A DNA stretch of 64,000 nucleotides, taken from contig NZ_CP119075.1 of NCBI RefSeq assembly GCF_029023725.1, positions 5,203,501 through 5,267,500 of the forward strand, written 5' to 3'. How positions within the stretch are numbered: position 1 is the first letter of the stretch; each line of letters opens with the position of its first letter. The position numbers and the translations under genes were made by a program. The notes beneath the pieces were generated by a model that was not told the DNA's origin, made no database searches, and saw only the letters and a program-made list of their open reading frames with translations. This DNA is from Synoicihabitans lomoniglobus (GTDB lineage: Bacteria > Verrucomicrobiota > Verrucomicrobiia > Opitutales > Opitutaceae). Shown here in pieces: positions 3,305-45,769 of the stretch.

Positions 3305-3942
3305 ATGCGGCGTTTGTTTCGAGCCTGGCTTGCGGGTGCCCTCGTGTGGGTCACGAGCGGTTGTGCGTCGTTTGACTACCCGTCGGAGGAAGGGCCGTTG
3401 CCGCCGGACTTGGCGGCGAAGCGGTTGAGCTGGGATCGGTTCGATGACCAGCGGTTGGCGACGGCCATCTTTGCCGAAACCAACCGCGTGCGCCGGGAGC
3501 ACGATTTGCCGCGTTTGCGGGAGACGGCGGATTTACAGGCCTACACGGTCGCCGTCACGGGTGTGGCGACGCATCACAATCCCTTGGCGGGTCGCGCTGG
3601 ATCGAAGCGATTGGCATTCCCGTGGCGTTGGCGATGGAGAATGTGGCATCGACATTGGCGCGGGTGTCGCCCTCCGGTAGTTCAATTCGCGTGACACTGG
3701 ATCCGGATGGCACGCGCGTGCGGCGCGATGCGCACACCGGAGAGGAGGTGCCGTGGCCGACTTACGAAGAAGCGGCCCGTCGTATCGTGCAGCAGAGGAT
3801 GGACTCGCCGGGGCATCGGAATAATTTGCTCAACCCCGAAGTGCGGCGTCTGGCGTGTGGCACGGTTTTGAGCCGCAGCGCGCTCGGTGGTGAAGTGATT
3901 CACTCCGTCCAAGTTTTTGTTAAATTAGCCTCTCGCCGATGA
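3305..3942 (+). pseudogene. Frameshifted CAP/SCP-domain lipoprotein gene
   Basis: The first frame (start 3305) encodes a signal peptide with lipobox (WVTSGCASF) and the first half of a CAP domain (IFAETNRVRREHDLPRL, then THHNPLAGR). Near base 3590 the domain jumps to the +2 frame and continues WIEAIGIPVALAMENV, then AARRIVQQRMDSPGHRNNLL and VHSVQVFVK to 3942. Joining the two frames gives a full CAP domain, so a one-base indel has split the gene, or there is a sequencing error. The nearly invariant Trp before M.SPGHR..NL is Arg here, while the duplicated copy downstream keeps Trp. CAP proteins are secreted or surface proteins of varied function. Confidence 0.75.
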
Positions 3943-4099
3943 TGTCCCTCCCTTCAGACCCCATCAGACTTACTTGTTGGTTCAGTAGTTCCTAGGGTTG
4001 ATTCCGTGATAGCCAGCACCGGAAAAACCGAGGCGGTATTGTCAAGGCATCGTGAGTCCGATCGTCCACAGATCGAACTGAACTACAATTGTTTAAACC

Positions 4100-4135
4100 T
4101 GATCCATTTTTTGGACCTGACCCATTTTTTGGACC
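4100..4135 (+). repeat. Two 18-bp units of CCTGACCCATTTTTTGGA
   Basis: Two adjacent copies end in GGACC at 4117 and 4135. They close the first CAP-tail unit and join directly to CAP coding sequence at 4136. Confidence 0.85.
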
Positions 4136-4347
4136 CGCACACCGGAGAGGAGGTGCCGTGGCCGACTTACGAAGAAGCGGCCCGTCGTATCGTGCAGCAG
4201 TGGATGGACTCGCCGGGGCATCGGAATAATTTGCTCAACCCCGAAGTGCGGCGTCTGGCGTGTGGCACCGCCTTGAGCCGCAGCGCGCTCGGTGGTGAAG
4301 TGATTCACTCCGTGCAAGTTTTCGTTAAAGTAGCCTCTCGCCGATGA
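4136..4347 (+). pseudogene. Truncated second copy of the CAP-domain 3' end
   Basis: This encodes HTGEEVPWPTYEEAARR, QQWMDSPGHRNNLL and the VHSVQVFVK end of a CAP domain, without signal peptide or N-terminal half. The upstream in-frame codons are translated repeat DNA (LDLTHFLDP). It keeps the conserved Trp that the copy attached to the gene has lost, so the detached fragment looks closer to the ancestral sequence. Confidence 0.8.
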
Positions 4348-4502
4348 TGTCCCTCCTTTCAGACCCCATCAGTCTTACTTGTTCGTTCAGTAGTTCCTAG
4401 GGTTGATTCCGTGATAGCCGGCACCGGAAAAATCGAGGCGGTATTGTCAAGACATCGTGAGTCCGATCGTCCACAGATCGAACTGAACTACAATTGTTTA
4501 AA

Positions 4503-4597
4503 CCTGACCCGTTTTTTGGACCGAACTACAATTGTTTAAACCTGACCCGTTTTTTGGACCTGACCCGTTTTTTGGACCTGACCCGTTTTTTGGACCC
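4503..4597 (+). repeat. Array of 18-bp units (CCTGACCCGTTTTTTGGA), end-anchored
   Basis: GGACC ends fall at 4522, 4560, 4578 and 4596. The intervening unit lengths are 38, 18 and 18 bp: the 38-bp unit reaches further into the element (it includes GAACTACAATTGTTTAAA), whereas the short ones stop earlier. All units share the same GGACC end. A right-end fragment of a different element (ATGTCCCCTTCGG, 4599-4611) abuts the array. Confidence 0.85.
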
Positions 4598-4644
4598 ATG
4601 TCCCCTTCGGTTGGCCCAATTGCTTGGATTTGGGCAACAGCCCC

Positions 4645-5169
4645 TCAAGGATTGACCCCGTCCGGCTGTCCGCCCGTCTCATACCAGTTGCCTTTAATGG
4701 AATTGGGGACTCCCATAAAATTAAGTTCAGGACGACCCGGTATAGGCAAATTCACCATCCGCCACTTTTCGTCAATTTTCTCCAAGAACAAAACTAGAAA
4801 ATGATCATCCATACTGCCAATTACATTTAAGGAAAAGCGACACACAGCGTAGCCGCCATTTTCGAATTCAAATGTATGATGAAAATTTACGTAGTATTTC
4901 ACTATGTCGCGTTCCGACATTTTCTTGACAAATAGACTACGAGAATAGCCTCGAATATACTCCGGATGAAGAATATCATATATTTCCCCCCAGTTACCAT
5001 TTAATATTCCTAATGAAAAGCGCCTTTCAAGATCACTTATACTGCCCGGGTCTTCAACGATTTGATCGGAAGCGTTCAGGTTGGAATTTCCTACTTTTGG
5101 ATCCTTCGCGCACCCGAATGCCGATATGAACGCAAGCACTCCTACAAAAATATTAATGTGACGTTTCAT
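4645..5169 (-). CDS. Uncharacterised lipoprotein, AT-rich
   Basis: 174 residues with a signal peptide and lipobox (AFISAFGCAKDP), so probably membrane-anchored. The rest (ERRFSLGILNGNWGEIYDILHPEYI..., ending in a two-stranded EKWRMVNLPIPGRPE) resembles small NTF2/DUF4440-like folds only in layout; I do not recognise the family. It overlaps the 3' end of the next upstream gene by 4 bp (ATGA), so the two were one operon. Base composition is distinctly AT-richer than the core genes, suggesting transfer. Confidence 0.6.
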   Translation of the reverse strand: MKRHINIFVGVLAFISAFGCAKDPKVGNSNLNASDQIVEDPGSISDLERRFSLGILNGNWGEIYDILHPEYIRGYSRSLFVKKMSERDIVKYYVNFHHTFEFENGGYAVCRFSLNVIGSMDDHFLVLFLEKIDEKWRMVNLPIPGRPELNFMGVPNSIKGNWYETGGQPDGVNP

Positions 5170-5564
5170 GGTATCGGTTCCGTTATCACAATTCGGGTAA
5201 TCCTAGTATCCTCAATACTGTAAACACTTCGAATTCCCGCAATCTGTCGCTGCACGACACTGTCTTGAATAAATCTAGTCTCGACCGTTCCTCCCCTCCC
5301 TGGGCTGCTCACCAACCAACTTTCCGCGCCCAACGGCACCGAAAAACTTGGGTATCTGCTGACTTCAGCAGCCGGTTTCAATCTGTAATTTGTTTGTTCA
5401 ATAATTGGAATATCGTCAACGATTCTATGGTCTTGAGGAATTTGATTATCCCCCGATACGTGATAATTAATATTTTTTGTTGAAGGCAATCCATAGTCAT
5501 TGTAATGCGCGACTTCCAGGGAGCCATTAACAGACGTTGTAGCCGAATACCCATGAGGGGACAA
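5166..5564 (-). CDS. 5'-truncated hypothetical gene fused to a repeat array
   Basis: The only available start is a TTG (5564) inside a repeat copy: the first codons TTG-TCC-CCT are repeat sequence, after which apparently genuine coding sequence starts (HGYSATTSVNGSLEVAHYND). The original 5' end is therefore probably lost. The remaining text (YNDYGLPSTKNINYH...) faintly recalls YD/RHS-type repeats but is too short to claim. It is AT-rich and overlaps the downstream lipoprotein gene by 4 bp. Probably not expressed as a functional protein. Confidence 0.45.
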   Translation of the reverse strand: MSPHGYSATTSVNGSLEVAHYNDYGLPSTKNINYHVSGDNQIPQDHRIVDDIPIIEQTNYRLKPAAEVSRYPSFSVPLGAESWLVSSPGRGGTVETRFIQDSVVQRQIAGIRSVYSIEDTRITRIVITEPIP

Positions 5565-5716
5565 TTTAAGGGGACATAGGACAATTTAAGGAGCCAATTT
5601 AAGGGGACATAGCCAATTTAAGGGGACATAGCCAATTTAAGGGAGCCAATTTAAGGGGACATGGAGCCAATTTAAGGAGCCAATTTAAGGGGACAAGCCA
5701 ATTTAAGGGGACATTG
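5557..5716 (+). repeat. Left-end array: 7-8 variably truncated copies of GGAGCCAATTTAAGGGGACAT
   Basis: Units begin [GGA]GCCAATTTAAGG and stop at different places (after ...GGGGACATA, ...AAGG, ...GGGGACATG, ...AAG, ...GGGGACAA). Unit lengths vary between about 12 and 21 bp. The last unit runs on into the complete palindromic element at 5697. The start of the unit is constant and its far end is not. Confidence 0.85.
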
Positions 5717-5820
5717 TTTGACTCTTGACAGATTTACTTCAATTGCGTGTGCGAGATCTGGTTTTGGCGACCCCGCGGAATGTTTTGTCAAGAGTCAAAC
5801 AATGCCCCCTTCGGCTTATA
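5697..5820 (+). repeat. Palindromic repeat element, copy 1
   Basis: A perfect 19-bp inverted repeat (CATTGTTTGACTCTTGACA at 5712-5730 and its complement at 5786-5804) encloses 55 bp. The pairing extends outward with one mismatch through AAGGGGA/CCCCCTT. There is no coding content. The element is bounded by GCCAATTTAAGG on the left and CCCCTTCGGCTTATA on the right. Non-autonomous; no transposase gene is in the window. Confidence 0.85.
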
Positions 5821-5876
5821 AACAATGTCCCCTTCGGCTTATACTAGAGTCAAACAATGTCCCCTTCGGCTTATAC
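5821..5876 (+). repeat. Right-end array of the palindromic element
   Basis: Two extra copies of the right end follow the element: 5821-5844 (starting AACAATG) and 5845-5876 (starting further in, at TAGAGTCAAACAATG). Both finish with CCCCTTCGGCTTATAC. Here the outer end is constant and the inner end varies, mirroring the left array. Confidence 0.8.
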
Positions 5877-5941
5877 TGGCTACGGTCATAAGTGGGGCTG
5901 TTATGGCCAGTGCTACTAATATTGCTTTAATGATTTTCATG

Positions 5942-6769
5942 CTATGGGGATGGGGGTGGCGTATCTTTATTTTCTAGCACAAGCTCAACTCGAGCATTGC
6001 CGATAACTTGGCGTGCGAGATTGTAAAAATTTGTATTGAAGTCCCTGTTAAAAAGAGACTTATGTTCTTCGTAAGGCTTCATCTCCTCATTAAGGTCACG
6101 AACTTCTGATTCACTTAATCCCTCGAGACTTGCAGGGATTTTTGGGTAGGGCATCTTATCACCTCGGCTGGACAAGGCCTTCTGATTGGCTTCCATCAAT
6201 TCCAAAGTTTCATTTGGGCTTAGAGGCGCGCCTTCGGAAGCCAAAACATCCCACATGTCGATCAACACTATCTCGGCGGGATAAAGGGACATTACTGTTT
6301 TCAGCCTCTCGTAAATTTTATCGGAGAAATGCTCCGTAACGGCCGCTTTGAATTGTTGCTCCAATTCGGCCGGACTACCTCTAACCTCTTCATTTACGAT
6401 TTGAGCCTCAAAATCCATCCATATTAAAAGCAACTGATCTTCTTTCGCCTCAGTTAGACCGAGAGCATATAGTGATCGCTTTTTACATAATGCGAGGCGC
6501 AGTTGGGTCGGGTTGGAGGAGTAGTCTATCGTAATGGATTGTGTTTCGGTCTTCTTTTTTTCGTTCTGATATTCAGTAATCGGTTTCTTTAGTGCTTCGG
6601 ATGCTGCTGGCGCAGGCGAGGGTTTCGCATGTAGTGATTTGTTTGCAGTCGAGTTTGATTTTACCGCCTCCTGCCCGTGGGTAACTCCGCCAAAGTTAGG
6701 AGTTAATGAAATGACAATCAGGATTGTAATTATTAATATGAAAACGAGTGATATAATCTTATTTTTCAT
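5942..6769 (-). CDS. Uncharacterised signal-anchored protein, AT-rich
   Basis: 275 residues from ATG 6769; the longer frame would start at a TTG inside the adjacent repeat. An N-terminal hydrophobic segment (KIISLVFILIITILIVISL) acts as signal or anchor, followed by a low-complexity Ser/Pro/Ala/Lys linker and a helical domain with many Glu/Leu. The C-terminus ends in prolines (DTPPPSP). I recognise no family. It lies between two copies of the palindromic element and, with its AT-rich codon use, looks like acquired DNA. Confidence 0.55.
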   Translation of the reverse strand: MKNKIISLVFILIITILIVISLTPNFGGVTHGQEAVKSNSTANKSLHAKPSPAPAASEALKKPITEYQNEKKKTETQSITIDYSSNPTQLRLALCKKRSLYALGLTEAKEDQLLLIWMDFEAQIVNEEVRGSPAELEQQFKAAVTEHFSDKIYERLKTVMSLYPAEIVLIDMWDVLASEGAPLSPNETLELMEANQKALSSRGDKMPYPKIPASLEGLSESEVRDLNEEMKPYEEHKSLFNRDFNTNFYNLARQVIGNARVELVLENKDTPPPSP

Positions 6770-6775
6770 TTTTCT

Positions 6776-7053
6776 AGCCAATCTAAGGGGACATTGTTTG
6801 ACTCTTGACAGATCTACTTCAATTGCGTGTTCGAGGTCCGGTTTTGGCGACCCCGCGGAATGTTTTGTAAAAAGTCAAACAATGCCCCCTTCGGCTTATA
6901 ACATCCATGGGACTAAACAGATGCGGCGCCTCTTCGGCTCTTTAGCCTAAATTCAAATCGTAGCGGGCGCTGCGACCGGCACCGACGGGTTGGAGGGCGC
7001 CGAGTTGGGCCAGGGCCTGTAAATCACGCGTAGCGGTGGCCTTGGACGCGCGG
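6776..7053 (+). repeat. 278-bp perfect tandem duplication: palindromic element plus 3' end of the Fic gene
   Basis: 6776-7053 and 7054-7331 appear identical by eye over the full unit. Each begins with AGCCAATCTAAGGGGACATTG (element copy, 125 bp) and runs through the Fic stop codon into its last ~37 codons. The first unit ends abruptly at GGACGCGCGG and joins the next GGAGCCAAT end. The near identity suggests a recent event. Confidence 0.9.
6942..7053 (-). pseudogene. Detached C-terminal fragment of the Fic gene
   Basis: A duplicate of the last ~37 codons of fic (winged-helix end, ...RSARYDLNLG stop). It is isolated from any start codon by the repeat element and is a by-product of the 278-bp tandem duplication. 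Confidence 0.85.
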
Positions 7054-7178
7054 AGCCAATCTAAGGGGACATTGTTTGACTCTTGACAGATCTACTTCAA
7101 TTGCGTGTTCGAGGTCCGGTTTTGGCGACCCCGCGGAATGTTTTGTAAAAAGTCAAACAATGCCCCCTTCGGCTTATA
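7054..7178 (+). repeat. Palindromic repeat element, copy 3 (copy 2 at 6776-6900)
   Basis: Same element as at 5697-5820, with the spacer conserved (ACTTCAATTGCGTGT ... GGTTTTGGCGACCCCGCGGAA). The right arm carries two mismatches (TGTAAAAAGTC instead of TGTCAAGAGTC) shared by copies 2 and 3. It sits 41 bp beyond the fic stop and may act as a 3' stem-loop of that transcript. Confidence 0.85.
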
Positions 7179-7219
7179 ACATCCATGGGACTAAACAGAT
7201 GCGGCGCCTCTTCGGCTCT

Positions 7220-8314
7220 TTAGCCTAAATTCAAATCGTAGCGGGCGCTGCGACCGGCACCGACGGGTTGGAGGGCGCCGAGTTGGGCCAGGGCCTGTAA
7301 ATCACGCGTAGCGGTGGCCTTGGACGCGCGGGTGAGCGAGATGTATTTGCGGGCGTTCATCCCTCCTTCGAATCCGCCGGGACCTGCTTCCAGCATGCGT
7401 CGCATCACGCGGAGTTGGCGGTCATTCAGTCGGTCTTGGTGACGGTCAAAGAACCGGGCTTGGTTGAGCACGAACATGACCACGGTTTCCGCGTCGCGTT
7501 GCGCGGTGAGCACCGTGGACACGAAGTAGCGTAGCCACGGGGTGACTTCGTTCGAGCGCTGCGCTTGCTCCAAGGCGTTGTAGTAGTCCCGTCGATACGC
7601 TTCGATGGTGCGCGACAAACTGAGCGTCGCCGGTCGACCGAGCCCCTGTGACAGGGCCTTCTCCGCCAAAGCTCGGCCGATGCGCCCGTTGCCATCCTCA
7701 AAGGGGTGGATGGATTCAAAATACAGATGCACCAATGCCGCACGCACCGGGGCCGCCGTGATCGTGCTCCGGGACGCGTTGAACCAGGCAATGAAACGCG
7801 CCATTTCGGTCGGCACCGTGACTGACGGCGGGGCTTCAAAGTGCAGCTTCCCTTTGCCCACCGCTCCAGAGATGACCTGCATCGGTTCCTCATGCGTCCG
7901 CCACGCGCCGACCACAACCCGTTGATTTCCGGGCAACAGGGTCCGGTGCCAAGCGAACAGGGTGTCTTCATCCAAGTTCGCATCCCAGGACTCGCGCACC
8001 GCCACCATGAGCTCGCCCGCTCCGGCCGACGCACGATCCGTCGTCGCTGCCGGTGCATCCGCCAAATTAAGGCGATGCCGCACCGACGACATCACATCCG
8101 GCCGACTCAAATACTCTCCTTCGATCTCCGAGGTTTTCACCGCCTCGGCTACCATCAACTGCACCAGCGCGTTCATCTGGTCCCCCTTGGACAGTCCTTT
8201 CAGGAGCCCCGCCACTTGCCCCGCTTGATCCGCAAAGTCGCGCAACTCCAGCTCCACCGCCCCCTGATCGTAGCGGAAGTCTGGCCAGTCGGATTGCTGC
8301 CAATTGAAAGTCAT
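7220..8314 (-). CDS. Fic-domain AMP-transferase with N-terminal inhibitory helix and C-terminal winged helix
   Basis: Predicted to transfer AMP to protein hydroxyls. The Fic active-site motif HPFEDGNGRIGR is intact (about residues 201-212). The inhibitory motif T-S-E-I-E-G lies at about residues 59-64, N-terminal to the core, so this is a self-inhibited class II Fic. The start MTFNWQQSDWPDFRYD (8314) matches the usual beginning of the DUF4172-Fic family; upstream in-frame codons translate repeat DNA and are excluded. The C-terminal ~60 residues (ARKYISLTRASKATATRDLQ) form a winged helix-turn-helix, suggesting DNA binding. Two matched palindromes at and upstream of the start codon are probable operators, giving autoregulation (inference). 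Confidence 0.92.
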   Translation of the reverse strand: MTFNWQQSDWPDFRYDQGAVELELRDFADQAGQVAGLLKGLSKGDQMNALVQLMVAEAVKTSEIEGEYLSRPDVMSSVRHRLNLADAPAATTDRASAGAGELMVAVRESWDANLDEDTLFAWHRTLLPGNQRVVVGAWRTHEEPMQVISGAVGKGKLHFEAPPSVTVPTEMARFIAWFNASRSTITAAPVRAALVHLYFESIHPFEDGNGRIGRALAEKALSQGLGRPATLSLSRTIEAYRRDYYNALEQAQRSNEVTPWLRYFVSTVLTAQRDAETVVMFVLNQARFFDRHQDRLNDRQLRVMRRMLEAGPGGFEGGMNARKYISLTRASKATATRDLQALAQLGALQPVGAGRSARYDLNLG

Positions 8315-8342
8315 GAGCCGAATAAATCGGACAATCGGCTCA
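8314..8342. promoter_or_regulatory. Operator-like palindrome 1 at the fic start codon
   Basis: TGAGCCGA-N13-TCGGCTCA, perfectly symmetric, extendable to 10-bp arms (8312-8321 and 8335-8344). It overlaps the fic ATG (8312-8314, minus strand). Same arms and the same 29-bp length as palindrome 2. Confidence 0.7.
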
Positions 8343-8358
8343 TGTAAAAGCGGATTCG

Positions 8359-8387
8359 TGAGCCGATTAATAGCCTGAATCGGCTCA
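8359..8387. promoter_or_regulatory. Operator-like palindrome 2 upstream of fic
   Basis: TGAGCCGATT-N9-AATCGGCTCA, centred 45 bp upstream of palindrome 1 and sharing its 8-bp outer arms and spacing. Two identical-geometry sites over a start codon and its promoter region are typical of an autorepressor; the winged helix at the Fic C-terminus is the obvious candidate ligand. Confidence 0.7.
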
Positions 8388-8450
8388 GACCCGAAATCCG
8401 AAAAAGGAAGAAGGACGGGAAATGAGGTCAGCTGGGAGACGGACGGTGCC

Positions 8451-8698
8451 GGAGCTGAAAAAGGAGCAGGAAGGGGTCTAGGAGCTGAAAAGAGGAGCTG
8501 AAAAGGGTCTGGTTTAAACCTTTGTAGTTCTGAGTCGTTCGTAGACTGAGTCATCGATCTCTCGACGCTTCAGGCGACCGTTGTGCGTGCTGACCGCTTC
8601 GGGCGCAGGTCGCAGAGAGCGCGGAGGCTCGGGTAGCGGGGCCGAGCTGGAGCTCGGCGTTCCCGGGGAGGGCCTCATCGAGGAGCTGAAAAGGGTCT
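8451..8698 (+). repeat. End-anchored array of GGAGCTGAAAAGGG units
   Basis: Consecutive units all begin GGAGC: 8451-8462 (12 bp), 8463-8480 (18 bp, diverged), 8481-8493 (13 bp), 8494-8681 (188 bp, running through GGTTTAAACC and TTTGTAGTTC into DNA that lies upstream of the oxidoreductase gene), and 8682-8698 (17 bp). The start is fixed and the far end varies. The 188-bp unit includes a REP-like palindrome, GCCGAGCTGGAGCTCGGC, at 8641-8658. Confidence 0.85.
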
Positions 8699-9861
8699 GG
8701 AGCTGAAAAGGGTCTGGTTTAAACCTTTGTAGTTCTGAGTCGTTCGTAGACTGAGATCATCGATCTCCCGACGCTTCAGGCGACCGTTGTGCGTGCTGAC
8801 CGCTTCGGGCGCAGGTCGCAGAGAGCGCGGAGGCTCGGGTAGCGGGGCCGAGCTGGAGCTCGGCGTTCCCGGTGAGGGCCTCATCGGGCGGGGAGGACCA
8901 GCGAGATGGGCTGGACGGGATTAGGACGTGCAGCGACTTGAGTTGGTTCGCATACGTTTGGTCCATGGTATCGAGAATGAACCCGTCAGCCCGCTTGCGT
9001 TGGGGCATCGTTTCCACCGGTCACATTGCTGGCGTTTTTGCGCGGGGGTTGCGATCGTCGCGCGGCGGGGAGTTGGTCGCGGTCGGCAGTCGGAAGATCG
9101 AGTCGGCGCAGGCGTTTGCGGCGGAACACGGCATCGCGCCGGAGCGGGCGCATGGCAGTTGGGAGGCGTTGTTCGCCGACCCCGAGGTCGACGCGGTTTA
9201 TGTGGCGACGCCGCATCCGCATCATGCGGGGGCGGTGGTGGCGGCGTTGGCGGCGGGGAAACACGTGCTGTGTGAAAAGCCTTTCGCGATGAGTTTGGCC
9301 GAGGTCGATGCGATGCAGGCGGCGGCCCGTGAACATCAGCGCACGCTGATGGAGGCGTGGATGTATCGGTGTCATCCGCAGACGGCCAAACTGGTGGCGA
9401 TGGTGCGGGAGGGAGCGATCGGCGAACTCCGGCACGTGCAGGCGGCGTTTAGTTTCAATGCGCCGTTTGATCCGGCGGGGCGGTTGTGGAACAAAGCCCT
9501 CGGTGGCGGGGCGGTGCTTGATGTGGGCGGCTACCCGTTGTCCTACGCGCGGTTGTTGGCCGGGGTGGCACAGGGTAAACCGTTTCTCGATCCGGAAGCG
9601 TTGCACGCCGTGGGCCATGTGCATCTCGAGGCGGGCACCGACCTGCGGGCGTGCGCGGTGGTGCGGTTTGCGGGCAATATCACGGCGGAGTTGTCGTGCG
9701 GCACCGATGTCTCGCAGCAAAATGTGGTGCGGGTTTATGGCAGTGCGGGCATGATCGTGGTGCCTTCGCCGTATGTGATTTCCCGCGATGCCAGCCCGAC
9801 CACGTTGGAGTGGCATCGTGAAGGCCGGGAGACCGAGGTGATCACGATCACGCCCGATCGG
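8699..9861 (+). repeat. 1163-bp tandem duplication unit: element end, upstream region and truncated oxidoreductase gene
   Basis: The stretch starting with GGAGCTGAAAAGGGTCTGG at 8699 recurs from 9862 onward with about 98-99% identity. The first unit breaks off inside the coding region (after CGCCCGATCG) and joins the next GGAGC end at 9862. The second copy continues to the intact gene end. Confidence 0.9.
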
Positions 9862-9885
9862 GGAGCTGAAAAGGGTCTGGTTTAA
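8977..9885 (+). pseudogene. 3'-truncated copy of a Gfo/Idh/MocA oxidoreductase gene
   Basis: The first ~295 residues are nearly identical to the full gene at 10140, including the N-terminal Rossmann part (WGIVSTGHIAGVFA) and the EKPFAMS motif. The frame then runs into repeat DNA, ending ...TPDRGAEKGLV and stop, and lacks about the last 50 residues. A cluster of coding differences (SRKIESAQ here, SRGVDSAQ in the full copy) stands out against otherwise sparse changes. Confidence 0.85.
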
Positions 9886-10046
9886 ACATTTGTAGTTCTG
9901 AGTCGTTCGTAGACTGAGATCATCGATCTCCCGACGCTTCAGGCGACCGTTGTGCGTGCTGACCGCTTCGGGCGCAGGTCGCAGAGAGCGCGGAGGCTCG
10001 GGTAGCGGGGCCGAGCTGGAGCTCGGCGTTCCCGGGGAGGGCCTCA
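9862..10046 (+). repeat. Third copy of the GGAGCTGAAAAGGG element, upstream of the intact oxidoreductase gene
   Basis: It starts at 9862 with GGAGCTGAAAAGGGTCTGG and carries GGTTTAAACA, TTTGTAGTTC and the same REP-like palindrome (10010-10027). It matches 8494-8681 and 8699-8886 apart from a few substitutions and a one-base indel. Confidence 0.85.
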
Positions 10047-10139
10047 TCGGGCGGTGAGGGCCAGCGAGATGGGCTGGACGGGATTAGGACGTGCAGAGAC
10101 TTGAGTTGGTTCGCATACGTTTGGTTCATGGTATCGAGA

Positions 10140-11177
10140 ATGAACCCGTCAGCCCGCTTGCGTTGGGGCATCGTTTCCACCGGTCACATTGCCGGCGTTT
10201 TTGCGCGGGGGTTGCGATCGTCGCGCGGCGGGGAGTTGGTCGCGGTCGGGAGTCGGGGCGTCGATTCGGCGCAGGCGTTTGCGGCGGAACACGGCATCGC
10301 GCCGGAGCGGGCGCATGGCAGTTGGGAGGCGTTGTTCGCCGACCCCGAGGTCGACGCGGTTTATGTGGCGACGCCGCATCCGCATCATGCGGCGGCGGTG
10401 GTGGCGGCGTTGGCGGCGGGGAAACACGTGCTGTGTGAAAAGCCTTTCGCGATGAGTTTGGCCGAGGTCGATGCGATGCAGGCGGCGGCCCGTGAACATC
10501 AGCGCACGCTGATGGAGGCGTGGATGTATCGGTGTCATCCGCAGACGGCCAAACTGGTGGCGATGGTGCGAGAGGGTGCGATCGGCGAACTGCGGCACGT
10601 GCAGGCGGCGTTTAGTTTCAACGCGCCGTTTGATCCGGCGGGGCGGTTGTGGAACAAAGCCCTCGGTGGCGGGGCGGTGCTTGATGTGGGCGGCTACCCG
10701 TTGTCCTACGCGCGGTTGTTGGCCGGGGTGGCACAGGGTAAACCGTTTCTCGATCCGGAAGCGTTGCACGCCGTGGGCCATGTGCATCTCGAGGCGGGCA
10801 CCGACCTGCGGGCGTGCGCGGTGGTGCGGTTTGCGGGCAATATCACGGCGGAGTTGTCGTGCGGCACCGATGTCTCGCAGCAAAATGTGGTGCGGGTTTA
10901 TGGCAGTGCGGGCATGATCGTGGTGCCTTCGCCGTATGTGATTTCCCGCGATGCCAGCCCGACCACGTTGGAGTGGCATCGTGAAGGCCGGGAGACCGAG
11001 GTGATCACGATCACGCCCGATCGGGACGTTTACGCCTACGAGGCCGATGCGTTGGCTGAGGCCGTGTCGGCGGGTAAACTCGAGGTGGCGGCCTGCCCTT
11101 GGGCCGATACGCGAGGCAACATGGCGGGCTTGATTGATTGGCATGAGCAAATTGGGGTGAATTACCTATTTTCTTGA
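10140..11177 (+). CDS. Gfo/Idh/MocA-family NAD(P)-dependent oxidoreductase (intact copy)
   Basis: 345 residues from ATG 10140 (an in-frame ATG at 10128 is an alternative; neither has a clear ribosome-binding site). N-terminal Rossmann fold with WGIVSTGHIAGVFA, the family EKP lysine motif (VLCEKPFAMS, about residues 95-104), a substrate domain with the GGGAVLDVGGYPLSYAR segment, and the C-terminal strand region. The likely role is oxidation or reduction of a sugar or cyclitol; substrate unknown. It is preceded by two truncated versions of its own 5' region, which may separate it from its original promoter. Confidence 0.9.
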   Translation: MNPSARLRWGIVSTGHIAGVFARGLRSSRGGELVAVGSRGVDSAQAFAAEHGIAPERAHGSWEALFADPEVDAVYVATPHPHHAAAVVAALAAGKHVLCEKPFAMSLAEVDAMQAAAREHQRTLMEAWMYRCHPQTAKLVAMVREGAIGELRHVQAAFSFNAPFDPAGRLWNKALGGGAVLDVGGYPLSYARLLAGVAQGKPFLDPEALHAVGHVHLEAGTDLRACAVVRFAGNITAELSCGTDVSQQNVVRVYGSAGMIVVPSPYVISRDASPTTLEWHREGRETEVITITPDRDVYAYEADALAEAVSAGKLEVAACPWADTRGNMAGLIDWHEQIGVNYLFS

Positions 11178-42943: not shown

Positions 42944-45769
42944 CTAACGAGGGTTTGGGTTGGTGCCTTGCGGCGGGGAGACGATGTCCAAAGTGGACGC
43001 CGCCAAGGGATCGGTGGCATGGTAGCCGAAGCGGGCCAGACGTTCGAGAAGGGGGCGGGCGCGAGCGGTTTCGCCGGTGAGGACCAGCGCCTGGGCGGCG
43101 GGATCGAGAAACCGCCAGTCGTGCGAGTTTTCCCAACGCGAACCGAGAATCCCGATCGCCTCCTGCCAGTGCTGACGCGCCTTGGCGTCGTCGCCGCTCG
43201 CGTGGGCGATGCGCCCGGCGAGCAGTTGAGCTTGGGCGAACTCTCCGACCGCCCAGCTGTTGGCTCGGTCCTGTTGGATGAGACCGTTGCCCAGGGCGAT
43301 GGCGCGATCGATGGCGGCCCGGGCGTCCGGCGGCTGCGTTGCCATTTGCAGGCGGGCTTCCAAGCGCCACGCGGTGGCCAGGCGACGGGTAAATTCGTGT
43401 GAGCCCGGTTCGGCCGCGACGAGGGCTTCGAGCTGTTCGCGCACCGGCGGGAGCAGCTCATGCGCGGTGTCCGTCTCGCCGGCGGCCAGCAGGAGCGTGA
43501 TGCGCTGCAGCTGCAGGTTGAGCGAAACGACGAGCCACCGTTGGTTGTGGGGATCCCGGGCGACGAGCGCGTCGAGGAGTTGCATCGCACGATCATACGA
43601 CGCCATGGCGCGATCGGGTTGCGCGGTCATGGCCTGAAGGTTGCCGGTGAATGTGACGCTGGCGGCGAGGCGTTCCTGCCACAGCACGACATCGGGTTCG
43701 CGGGCCATGAGTGTTTCGATACCGGACGACATTTCGGTGTAGCGCTCGACGGCTTCCAGATAGGCGCCGTCGCGTTCGGCCACACTGCCGAGCCAGGATG
43801 CGATGTCGGTCATGCGCGTCTGCAGTTCCAGATCCCCCGGGTTGGCGGCGAGCAGTTCGGCGATGGCGTGTCGTTCGCTCAGGAACCCGGCCCGGGCGGC
43901 CTTCAGGTCCCCGGCCTCGAAGTCGAGCACCGCGAGATTGTGGTATCCGTAAGTCAGTTCGTTTTGCGACCGCAGCGTCTTGCCTTCGATCTCGTTCAGC
44001 GCGATTGCCGAATCGCGGTAACGCATGAGCCATTCCCGTTCCTCGGCGAATTCACCCCGACGGCGGGCGACGAAGCCGATCCAGAACTCGGCCTGGGCCC
44101 GCTCGAAAAGCATGTCGGCATTACTGGGATGTCGTTCGCACAGGGCGGCGGCGCGATCGTAGGCGGTGGTAAAGGCGGCGGCCGCTTCGGGATAGCGGGC
44201 TTGGTCGATGCGCGTCTCGCCGATCTGGGTGAGCGCTTTGGATTGGCGCACCAGCGCGGTGTCGGTGAGGTCGCGGGCGTTGAGTCCGGCAAAGTAGTCC
44301 ATGGCCTTCTCGCCGACGGCATCGAGCAGGTTGAGGCGGCCGATCTTTTGGAGCTCGGTGCGAAAGTCCCCGAGCATGAAGGTGAGCAGATCCTCCGCTT
44401 GTTCCTGGCGGCGTTGGGCATCGGCGCGGGCGAGGGCTTCGGCGCGTCCGGCCGCGGTGGCCGCGTCGCGTTCGGCGGTGGCGGTTTGTTCGGCGGCGGT
44501 GGCGCGCACGGCTTGGCGCACACTCACGATCGTGCCGCCGACGAGCGTGGCGGTGATGGCGGCGACGCTGAGGCAGGCGAGCTGGTTGCGCGCGACAAAT
44601 TTTTGGATGCGATAGGCGGTGCTTTGCGGGCGCGCTTCCACCGGTTCGTGACGCAGGTGACGGCGCACGTCGTCGGCGAGTTCCTGCGCGGTCCCGTAGC
44701 GTCGGGTCCGGGGCTTTTCGAGGCAGCGCATGACGATGGCGTCGAGATCGCCGCGGAGTGCGTTGCGCAAGTGCGGGGGGGGGACGCGACGGGTTTGCGC
44801 GATCGCTTTACACGCGTCTGCGGACAGGGCGGCGATCCGGGCGGAAGGCCGCGGCGGATCGACTTCGCGGATGACGCGTCGCACTTCGTCGATGCCGCCG
44901 CGCACGAGCTCCTGCGGATCAAAGGGCGGTTGCCCGGTCAACATTTCGTAGAGCAGCACGCCGAGTGAATAGACGTCGCTGCGGGTATCGATGTCGAAGT
45001 CGCGCAGCTCCGCCTGTTCCGGGCTCATGTAAGCGGGGGTGCCCATGAACTGGCCCACGCCGGTGAGCAGCGTTTCCTCGGTGAGGCGACCTTGCGTGGC
45101 CTTGGCGATGCCGAAGTCGATGACCTTGGGCGTGGGCACGCCGTCGGAGCGTGCTACGAGGATGTTGGAGGGTTTTACGTCGCGGTGAATGATGCCCTTT
45201 TGGTGGGCGTGTTGGATGGCGAGACACACGCGGGCGAACAATTCCAGCCGTTCGTGCAGCGACAGGTTGTGCTCGTCGCAAAACTCGGTGATGCGCACGC
45301 CGTCGACGTATTCCATCACAAAGAACGGGCGCCCCGCCTCGGTGGTGCCGGCGTCGAACACCCGGGCGATATCGGGATGGTCCATCATGGCCAACGCCTG
45401 CCGCTCGGCAGTGAAGCGGGCGATGACGGCGTTGGTGTCCATGCCGAGTTTGATGACCTTGAGCGCGACATGCCGGCGCACGGGTTCCTTTTGCTCGGCG
45501 AGGTAGACCACGCCGCAGCCCCCGTCACCGATGCGGCGCTGCAGCGCGTAACGGCCGATGACGTCGCCGATTTTCTCTTCGGGCGGCAACAGCGGGCGTT
45601 CGATCGGAGAGTCTTCGAGAAAACTGTCCGCCGCTTCATAACCGGCGATCAGTGCCTCGACTCGGGCGCGAAGGGCGTCGTCGTTGCCACAGGTCTCGAG
45701 CAAAAATGCTTCCCGGGCGTGAGTCGGCATGTCGAGCGCCGCAGAGAAAATTTGCTCGTCGCGATTCAT
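42944..45769 (-). CDS. Membrane-anchored Ser/Thr protein kinase with helical-repeat C-terminus
   Basis: 941 residues. An N-terminal helical cap (1-65) precedes the kinase domain (about 70-345): glycine loop RIGDGGCGVVYLAE, catalytic Lys in VALKVIKLG, HRDVKPSNILV, DFGIAKA, and MGTPAYMSPEQAELRDFDIDTRSDVYSLGVLL. One transmembrane helix lies near residue 400 (LACLSVAAITATLVGGTIVSV), followed by ~520 residues of TPR-like helical repeats. The paired ECF sigma gene lies upstream and three tail-protein genes lie downstream. Kinase signalling that controls the sigma factor, or phosphorylates the tail proteins, is the natural hypothesis. Confidence 0.93.
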   Translation of the reverse strand: MNRDEQIFSAALDMPTHAREAFLLETCGNDDALRARVEALIAGYEAADSFLEDSPIERPLLPPEEKIGDVIGRYALQRRIGDGGCGVVYLAEQKEPVRRHVALKVIKLGMDTNAVIARFTAERQALAMMDHPDIARVFDAGTTEAGRPFFVMEYVDGVRITEFCDEHNLSLHERLELFARVCLAIQHAHQKGIIHRDVKPSNILVARSDGVPTPKVIDFGIAKATQGRLTEETLLTGVGQFMGTPAYMSPEQAELRDFDIDTRSDVYSLGVLLYEMLTGQPPFDPQELVRGGIDEVRRVIREVDPPRPSARIAALSADACKAIAQTRRVPPPHLRNALRGDLDAIVMRCLEKPRTRRYGTAQELADDVRRHLRHEPVEARPQSTAYRIQKFVARNQLACLSVAAITATLVGGTIVSVRQAVRATAAEQTATAERDAATAAGRAEALARADAQRRQEQAEDLLTFMLGDFRTELQKIGRLNLLDAVGEKAMDYFAGLNARDLTDTALVRQSKALTQIGETRIDQARYPEAAAAFTTAYDRAAALCERHPSNADMLFERAQAEFWIGFVARRRGEFAEEREWLMRYRDSAIALNEIEGKTLRSQNELTYGYHNLAVLDFEAGDLKAARAGFLSERHAIAELLAANPGDLELQTRMTDIASWLGSVAERDGAYLEAVERYTEMSSGIETLMAREPDVVLWQERLAASVTFTGNLQAMTAQPDRAMASYDRAMQLLDALVARDPHNQRWLVVSLNLQLQRITLLLAAGETDTAHELLPPVREQLEALVAAEPGSHEFTRRLATAWRLEARLQMATQPPDARAAIDRAIALGNGLIQQDRANSWAVGEFAQAQLLAGRIAHASGDDAKARQHWQEAIGILGSRWENSHDWRFLDPAAQALVLTGETARARPLLERLARFGYHATDPLAASTLDIVSPPQGTNPNPR

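Follow-up and report, generated by a model that had tools for sequence, protein, structure and literature searches.

The closest described relatives of the elements considered here are the TIRtrons and their enzymes, the TIRYTs. In the excerpts consulted of Di Nocera et al. 2013 (PMC3733652), the enzyme is a Y1 HUH transposase whose C-terminal part is long, the inverted repeats carry a GGGGWSAS-like motif, and fragments of the ends occur scattered, dimeric or clustered; the present elements are alike in all of this. TnpAY1 subclass 2.1 is, in the part consulted of Quentin et al. 2018 (PMC6006769), considered by its authors probably to correspond to TIRYT. It is the second largest of their subclasses, occurring in 14.9% of the strains analysed, and the TIRYTs described below probably belong to it. 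What sets the present loci apart from the TIRtron/TIRYT accounts, which in the sections consulted speak of dimers and clusters, are duplications anchored at one end, a cut distance and duplicated host genes.

Other systems are more distant. The RAYTs of REP and BIME sequences are related enzymes, 4er8 being the closest solved fold for a predicted model, and REP clusters are said to be tandemly reiterated with flanking DNA of variable length (PMC3733652, same excerpts). Unlike RAYT/REP systems, the ends studied here form no stable hairpin (z-scores +1.1, +1.1, -0.2 and -1.5 for four ends folded as DNA), and four of four proteins score 61-74 bits against the NCBIfam model REP_Tyr_transpos, below its cut-off of 80. 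Nor do they resemble IS200/IS605: four of four score 20-31 bits against the NCBIfam IS200 transposase model (cut-off 55), and no fixed target lies beside the cut left end, the information content being at most 0.09 outside position -17 (133 ends). In contrast to the IS91 family, Y1_Tnp is the only Pfam family to pass E 0.001 and there is no IS91-type (Y2) transposase. By analogy, the duplication pattern nevertheless resembles the one-ended rolling-circle mode of IS91: one-ended transposition of IS91/IS801 likewise gives a fixed end and variable ends able to take host DNA, although IS801 inserts elsewhere and halts at a tetranucleotide (PMC3189936, consulted in part), whereas here the copies are tandem and in place, with no stop motif recognised. 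Tandem arrays are also formed by Helitrons, eukaryotic Rep/helicase elements in which they are attributed to bypass of the termination signal during rolling-circle transposition (PMC4067079, excerpts); here only the start is constant, and units are as short as 12 bp.

The whole stretch of DNA analysed, referred to as the window, is 64,000 nt of Synoicihabitans lomoniglobus NZ_CP119075.1 (5,203,501-5,267,500, forward strand). A preliminary description had claimed that tandem units at its CAP, Fic and oxidoreductase loci share one fixed boundary and one orientation while the other boundary varies, and this arrangement was recovered in the window and extended to related loci. The features, assigned to two element families (F1 and F3) with autonomous copies L009 and L015 elsewhere in the genome, are as follows.

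3731-4135, minus strand: upstream copy of the CAP-spanning 387-bp unit (405 bp when one additional 18-bp tip unit is counted); its tip is at 4135 and its free end at 3731; CAP Pfam matches
4080-4135, minus strand: left end of F1 type (AATTGTA) carrying two tip units of 18 bp; end type that of the left end of autonomous L009
4136-4522, minus strand: second copy of the 387-bp unit; fixed end (tip) at 4522, junction 15 nt from the core
4485-4596, minus strand: F1 left-end array of one 38-bp and further 18-bp units, start GGTCCAAAAAACGGG (tandem detection, lag-run list)
5556-5714, plus strand: F3 tip array of 13-19 bp units, most with start AGCCAATTTAAGGGG (tandem detection, lag-run list)
5696-5875, no strand assigned: non-autonomous F3 element with repeats of 23/32-bp units at its right end, near 5797-5875; autonomous relative L015
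6776-7053, plus strand: 278-bp unit, first copy, comprising the F3 element and the 3' end of the Fic gene; 278/278 identical, Fic Pfam match
7054-7331, plus strand: second copy of the 278-bp unit (tandem detection, lag-run list)
8451-8510, plus strand: F1 right-end tip array of about 12-18 bp units, start (A)GGAGC (tandem detection, lag-run list)
8493-8680, plus strand: 188-bp unit, first copy, comprising the F1 right end, a remnant of a TIRYT C-terminus and flank; junction 15 nt
8681-8886, plus strand: 188-bp unit, second copy, lengthened by a 17-bp tip unit (tandem detection, lag-run list)
8699-9861, plus strand: 1163-bp unit, first copy, comprising the F1 right end and the larger part of a GFO/IDH/MocA oxidoreductase gene; 1145/1163 identical, Pfam match
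9862-11024, plus strand: 1163-bp unit, second copy, which continues into the complete oxidoreductase gene (tandem detection, Pfam match)

Unit sizes span 12 to 1163 bp. Those of 13, 14, 17, 18, 19, 23, 38, 278 and 1163 bp were recovered directly by tandem detection. The 387/405 and 188/206 pairs, which are interrupted by later small units, were selected from a longer lag-run list whose other rows were shorter, nested or out of phase; the distinct junctions in both lag-run lists (window and TIRYT arrays) were chosen by eye from longer lists. The copies are unequally alike (372/387 in the CAP unit, against 1145/1163 and 278/278 in the oxidoreductase and Fic units), which indicates duplication events of different age. 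In the related genome G002 the Fic gene has a single 3' end and lacks the element, and the syntenic region holds the oxidoreductase in one copy.

Judged by their sequence, the window elements represent termini of TIRYT-type transposons, which use Y1/HUH enzymes. At CAP lies the left end of F1 and at the oxidoreductase its right end; the autonomous F1 copy L009 (genome positions 3176152-3177123) has the same ends on both sides; the TIRYT remnant in the 188-bp unit matches the 3' end of the L009 gene. The Fic element, which had been grouped with them, is of a second family, F3, with an F3 end on both sides of L015 (1620675-1621670). The search for an HUH/RAYT-like transposase gene flanked by the same ends, proposed at the outset, was successful in L009 and L015, where GGGGWSAS-like terminal inverted repeats flank the gene on both sides. 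All 18 Y1_Tnp places of the genome are outside the window, in agreement with the earlier suggestion of action in trans. Among the 80 related loci surveyed (the best of 313 found), a GGG[TA]C[AT] motif was present at the left end in 72 cases, in 59 of them 45-65 nt before the gene, and at the right end in 63; some single motifs may be chance. No DNA relatives of the element were found on plasmids, and the protein relatives there are distant (11 records, each below 60% identity).

The transposase proteins score above the cut-off for PF01797 (Y1_Tnp) in a Pfam profile search, and H60/H62 and Y119 are invariant in 7/7 and 23/23 aligned proteins (alignments A1 and A2); we take H60/H62 to be the HUH pair and Y119 the catalytic tyrosine of the family. 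A sequence search of solved structures gave no match at E 0.01; the best fold match for the model of a relative is the E. coli REP transposase 4er8 (E 4.6e-6). The C-terminal part, where TIRYTs carry a helix-turn-helix or DnaA-like domain, has no Pfam match at E 0.001 and is helical in the predicted model of a relative. The machinery had been put forward as a candidate for something undescribed, but the enzyme family fits the known TIRYT/TIRtron group as characterized in the excerpts of PMC3733652.

A fixed point exists, as the preliminary description held, but it is not the GG tip: what stays constant is how far it lies from the GGG(G)TCA/GGGGACA core. The Fic unit opens with AGCC, and the preceding GG is part of the other side. 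In the window, the junction lies 15 nt from the [T/A]C of the core for the 387, 278, 188 and 38 bp units, and at 13-14 nt for the 1163-bp unit, owing to one shared base. More generally, 85 tandems (mismatch limit 12%, shared stretches at the junction longer than 5 left out) gave 170 tandem-by-orientation rows, 73 of which have a core no more than 27 nt from the start of the second copy. With a GGG(G)TCA-type core in that copy, the start range includes 15 nt before the core TC in 55 of the 73 and touches 14-16 nt in 69, despite differing tip sequences; position -15 itself is little conserved (information content 0.15, 133 ends). TIRYT genes also occur in tandem arrays with truncated before full copies, having junctions 14-16 nt from the core (G000, G170 and G202). 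In the lag-run list for these arrays, only 12 of 35 rows end 13-16 nt from the core, and we read the others as mismatch breaks or nested units.

In loci held out from the same order, the distance was 14-16 nt in 11 of 15 rows, with exactly 15 nt in range for 3; in other lineages most cases lie 8-10 nt from the core. A universal 15-nt rule was dropped, since the held-out loci keep the anchoring while the number varies. This hold-out, at the same 12% limit, omitted five overlapping loci and scanned whole loci as against the planned 600 bp around the gene. One tandem (L249, 26 bp) is present twice among its 27 rows, once per strand, and another (L257) is entered at 6 nt since a chance motif comes first; the following core stands at 15 nt. 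The second hold-out set was picked once the 9-nt class had been seen, and some of its genomes are common with the first. A fixed cut point is well supported by these distances.

Tandems are concentrated at the transposase genes: across the 80 loci (mismatch limit 10%; units of fewer than three base types were left out of tandem counts throughout) there are 48 in 135 kb at TIRYT genes and 10 in 425 kb of flank, or 35.6 versus 2.4 per 100 kb, the anchored repeat being absent from 59 of the 80. Positions 12-64 kb of the window gave none with the same detector at a 15% limit, while Tandem Repeats Finder reports a single weak repeat of 2.1 copies in that part. In 800 kb sampled systematically from the genome (10% limit) there were nine, two of them at element tips, and the other Y1 families of the genome gave one in nine loci (121-bp unit, with no core motif in the part inspected). 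In favour of a transposase-free origin, through slippage of replication or unequal crossing-over at short repeats, it can be said that short tandem units are classically produced by slippage, and that once two units exist later changes in copy number could be ordinary. Such an origin is strongly disfavoured and, in our view, very improbable: tandems are far fewer in evenly sampled DNA of the same genome, and the start-to-core distance is kept in 69/73 rows though the tips differ in sequence.

Microhomology bears on the same question. For units of up to 60 bp its mean was 1.08, as against 1.22 at alternative far ends (P 0.61), which disfavours it as the general determinant of the far end, in keeping with the earlier expectation. 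Slippage can draw on an excess of two-base microhomology (17/69 versus 7.3 expected under equal base use; 16/66 versus 12.5% for alternative far ends), which we tentatively read as reflecting GG at both places, but it would not be expected to leave the mean no higher than at alternative far ends.

The far ends do vary, as had been claimed, but not uniformly: 55 of 69 fall within -3 to +5 nt of the core, and 55 of the 69 anchored units are 12-20 bp long. Read on the opposite strand, boundaries repeatedly coincide with the inner edge of TCA (18/41). Since the far ends cluster near the core and this edge recurs, a second cut there would also fit. The TIRYT might cleave single-stranded DNA at the tip and at a second site, and join the tip of a sister or circle to the 3' OH there, a one-ended transfer that needs no synthesis from the nick and is comparable with IS91/IS801. 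The recurrent TCA edge would suit this, as would the cleavage and strand transfer, including at discrete distant sites, ascribed to E. coli RAYT (PMC8266576, excerpts) and the one-ended IS801 insertions with one end fixed and the other variable (PMC3189936, excerpts). We think it unlikely, because the far ends of long units have no established sequence preference (a G precedes the junction in 6 of the 12 cases that are unambiguous; P 0.12, not significant) and the tetranucleotide at which IS801 ends, according to the same excerpts, has no counterpart recognised here. It has equally to be considered that a tip nick by the TIRYT is accompanied by a second break of the other strand, by TIRYT or host, near or inside the core, with fill-in and joining. 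Units of 12-20 bp would be a natural stagger, and filled staggers give small tandem duplications in mouse cells (PMC8355091, consulted in part); against this, these mouse events fall strongly without Ku80, and units of 278, 387, 836, 931 and 1163 bp would require very long melted staggers. We judge such a staggered break rather improbable.

A nick by the TIRYT, followed by 3' extension and rejoining to the tip, is the origin of the repeats that we hold to be moderately likely. The enzyme, a Y1 HUH single-strand nuclease/ligase, would work in trans, both at its own ends and at dead relatives, binding the GGG(G)[T/A]CA core of the inverted repeat and nicking the inward-reading strand outside it, at about 15 nt in this order and at some 9 nt in other orders. 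The tip would stay bound to the TIRYT tyrosine by its 5' end and the outer flank would gain a free 3' OH, from which strand-displacement synthesis would proceed, mostly halting near the enzyme-bound core and occasionally passing through the element and reaching host genes after hundreds of bases; the TIRYT would then join the freshly made 3' end to the tip, so that the stretch between tip and stopping point stands twice in tandem. HUH enzymes, including E. coli RAYT, leave a 5' phosphotyrosine and a free 3' OH on cleavage, and this 3' OH primes synthesis in other HUH enzymes; for REPs such priming is only suggested (PMC8266576, excerpts). The fixed start with its core distance, the varying far end, the link to the TIRYT gene and the single-copy relatives can be read in the DNA itself. 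The preliminary description spoke of a replicative process; the data give a fixed start and variable joins, and we infer the copying, as we do the rejoining and the identity of TIRYT as the nicking agent.

The transposon family is a known one, and its anchored duplication behaviour is without description in the literature searched: no account of one-end-anchored duplications at Y1 transposon ends was recognised in a search that left most subscription journals and bioRxiv uncovered and so is no proof of absence. We know of no experiment on DNA cutting by a TIRYT. The duplications are a fossil record of the cut, the position of which they predict to about one base within a lineage, and the mechanism is therefore directly testable. 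More tentatively, and with some doubt, TIRYTs may be ruler-guided replicative nickases, in which the cut is set by the distance from the core, not by a guide sequence or hairpin, and which prime and then re-close strand-displacement synthesis on the chromosome, amplifying their own ends and adjacent host genes in place; if true, a Y1 enzyme would here work in a rolling-circle mode that is one-ended and in place. Should the reading of a nick with extension and rejoining hold, these enzymes would be a homology-free source of short repeats, of partial gene copies (CAP, Fic and oxidoreductase) and of tandem transposase arrays in bacterial genomes.

At three host loci between 3.7 and 11.0 kb of the window, in a genome that is a single contig of 5.93 Mb, there are tandem units whose lengths range from 13 to 1163 bp; the host genes there are, by Pfam, those for CAP, Fic and GFO/IDH/MocA oxidoreductase proteins. 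The copies are of unequal age, as judged by their identities (278/278 for the 278-bp unit, 1145/1163 for the 1163-bp unit and 372/387 for the 387-bp unit), and the 387/405-bp and 188/206-bp units, selected from the list of lag runs, are broken up by later small units. The partial oxidoreductase copy (window 8872-9885) retains both GFO/IDH/MocA Pfam domains and an open frame and, on this reading, could still give a protein product. A GC-rich short palindrome-like repeat around GGCCGAGCTGGAGCTCGGCGTTCCC occurs at window 8636-8681 and at many other sites of the genome. The detector used for the three loci found no tandem in the 52 kb of the window past 12 kb; Tandem Repeats Finder reports one weak repeat there (window 44862-44905; 21-bp unit, 2.1 copies, 78% matches). 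In G002, a genome of the same genus, there is a single Fic gene with a single 3' end, without an adjoining element, and the syntenic region has one oxidoreductase; matches to the elements and to the CAP gene were absent from that oxidoreductase region. Because Fic and oxidoreductase are single-copy in G002, their duplications are most simply explained as gains in the S. lomoniglobus lineage.

The Y1_Tnp domain (PF01797) is found at 18 places in the genome, none of them inside the window. One, L009 (genome 3176152-3177123), is bounded on both sides by ends of the CAP/oxidoreductase type: its left end, GGGTCAGGTTTAAACAATTGTA, is the same as at CAP, its right end, GGGTCAGGTTTAAACATTTGTA, is one or two bases off the oxidoreductase ends, and a remnant at the oxidoreductase locus matches the reversed C-terminal end of its gene. 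At another, L015, the Fic-type end GGGGACATTGTTTGACTCTTGAC flanks both sides. A Y1 gene flanked by the end types of the window, as envisaged in the preliminary description, thus exists at both places, and the matching ends indicate that the elements of the window are dead ends or small relatives of two autonomous transposons. These fit the TIRYT/TIRtron family as portrayed in the available parts of two papers (PMC3733652; PMC6006769). An AlphaFold model of the relative L122 (mean pLDDT 86) has the E. coli REP transposase 4er8 as its best match. Invariant in the aligned proteins (7/7 and 23/23) are H60 and H62, which we take to be the HUH pair, and Y119, presumably the catalytic tyrosine. A third small element (L075:6638-6690, genome about 4361640) bears AGGCAGCCATCGGGGTCA as its tip, with an 18-bp anchored duplication of its own. 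G056, G059, G068, G143, G250, G261 and further genomes of group f19 g52 have a single listed TIRYT match each, which in these six single-contig genomes lies at 2.40-2.58 Mb, a placement that would suit a domesticated gene better than a mobile one.

Most units start at a set distance from the core of the element's inverted repeat. The discovery set (the window, its own genome and the best 80 of 313 related loci, the latter from Opitutaceae and other Verrucomicrobiota) gave 85 tandems and 170 rows, each tandem being positioned against the nearest GGG[TA]C[AT] core within its second copy, with the start given as a range that allows for shared bases. A core was present ≤27 nt away in 73 rows. The range contains exactly 15 nt before [T/A]C in 55 of these and touches 14-16 nt in 69 (52 distinct tips), which bears out the earlier claim of one constant unit boundary. 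Eight other motifs tried as anchor gave no comparable peak, setting aside those (GG[CG]G, AAAA) that overlap the core or the sequence adjoining it; for TGACC, the core as read on the reverse strand, the peak is at offset 0 (18/41) because the preferred far end sits just inside TCA. Among 133 ends picked regardless of duplication there is almost no conservation beyond -9, apart from a weak excess of purine/G at -17 to -14 (IC 0.11-0.15). The distance peak and the nearly unconserved tip together argue that the start is mainly set by distance from the core.

The hold-out prediction was fixed in advance. The first hold-out, made up of another 44 loci (213 kb), yielded 44 tandems, and a core was present in 27 rows. 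Anchoring held but the exact number did not generalise: same-order rows (n=15) included exactly 15 nt in three cases and touched 14-16 nt in 11, and of the 11 distinct tandems belonging to the phylum's other lineages, 9 had 8-10 nt within their start range. A second hold-out (19 loci, 86 kb), selected after this result, gave nine tandems and five rows with a core, four at 8-10 nt. As a general number 15 nt is rejected, most other-lineage cases having 8-10 nt; from both hold-outs, the distance looks lineage-typical.

As far as their junctions can be read, the distance rule also fits tandem TIRYT genes. In the own genome, a truncated copy, a shortened one and a full one follow each other in that order; their clean junctions lie 14-16 nt from the core, and the other junctions are masked by nested units or divergence. 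In G170 (one contig), two copies of an 836-bp unit with truncated genes, starting 16 nt from TC, precede a full gene, and the start of a 931-bp unit in G202 (two contigs) is at 15 nt. L257 (G202:C1 2601635 and 2603851) comprises two TIRYT genes of equal score, spaced by ~2.2 kb on one contig.

Among the best 80 of 313 loci, tandems number 48 over the 135 kb that surround TIRYT genes (35.6 per 100 kb), only part of them core-anchored, against 10 in 425 kb of flank (2.4 per 100 kb), of which four, all at L176, also resemble element tips. Units that are anchored and ≤600 bp from TIRYT genes number 31, in 21 of these 80 loci. Twenty stretches of the own genome, chosen for elements or transposase genes (one being merely a neighbouring stretch), hold 35 tandems in 182 kb; 40 evenly spaced 20-kb stretches hold nine in 800 kb, two at element tips.

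Anchored units of the discovery set span 12 to 1163 bp. The far end, previously described as free, does vary, but 55 of 69 cluster at -3 to +5 nt of the core (14 lie farther off), with modes directly before TC and directly after TCA. Long junctions were chosen out of a second lag-run list, in which some rows are one junction against several copies: those with lags of 119, 219, 836, 931 and 2192 end 14-16 nt from the core, and for a sixth, of lag 1159, the distance is 26 nt, a small unit being nested at that point. In all, 12/35 rows of that list end 13-16 nt from the core; the remainder are read as mismatch breaks or nested units. That microhomology sets the unit boundaries, one of the findings that would have told against the preliminary description, is not favoured: for 66 units ≤60 bp, mean microhomology was 1.08, against 1.22 at alternative far ends from the same elements (P 0.61), although two-base matches are over-represented (16/66 against 12.5%; also 17/69 against 7.3 expected). 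Slippage is disfavoured. A base preference before the junction was not established (G in 6/12 long units, P 0.12, and 12/34 short units, P 0.29).

HUH enzymes, as the available part of one paper describes them, cut single-stranded DNA, keep the 5' end on the tyrosine and leave a free 3' OH, which primes replication in some of them and, its authors suggest, might do so in REPs (PMC8266576). A nick at the measured point outside the core would be followed by extension of the 3' OH up to a varying stop, mostly near the enzyme-bound core, and the extended end would be rejoined to the held tip to give a tandem unit. Nicking, extension and rejoining would yield short and long units alike and would need no homology. 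A second cut followed by fill-in, or a strand transfer that is one-ended, would account nearly equally well for the short units or for features of the junctions; we regard both as unlikely, the second marginally more so.

The TIRYT/TIRtron family itself is already known. In the literature searched, we recognised no report of the anchored duplication, the cut distance or host genes duplicated in this way. Di Nocera et al. (PMC3733652), in the portion available, noted TIR clusters and described REP clusters that recur in tandem together with variable lengths of flanking DNA; these may reflect the process described here, observed without its anchor.
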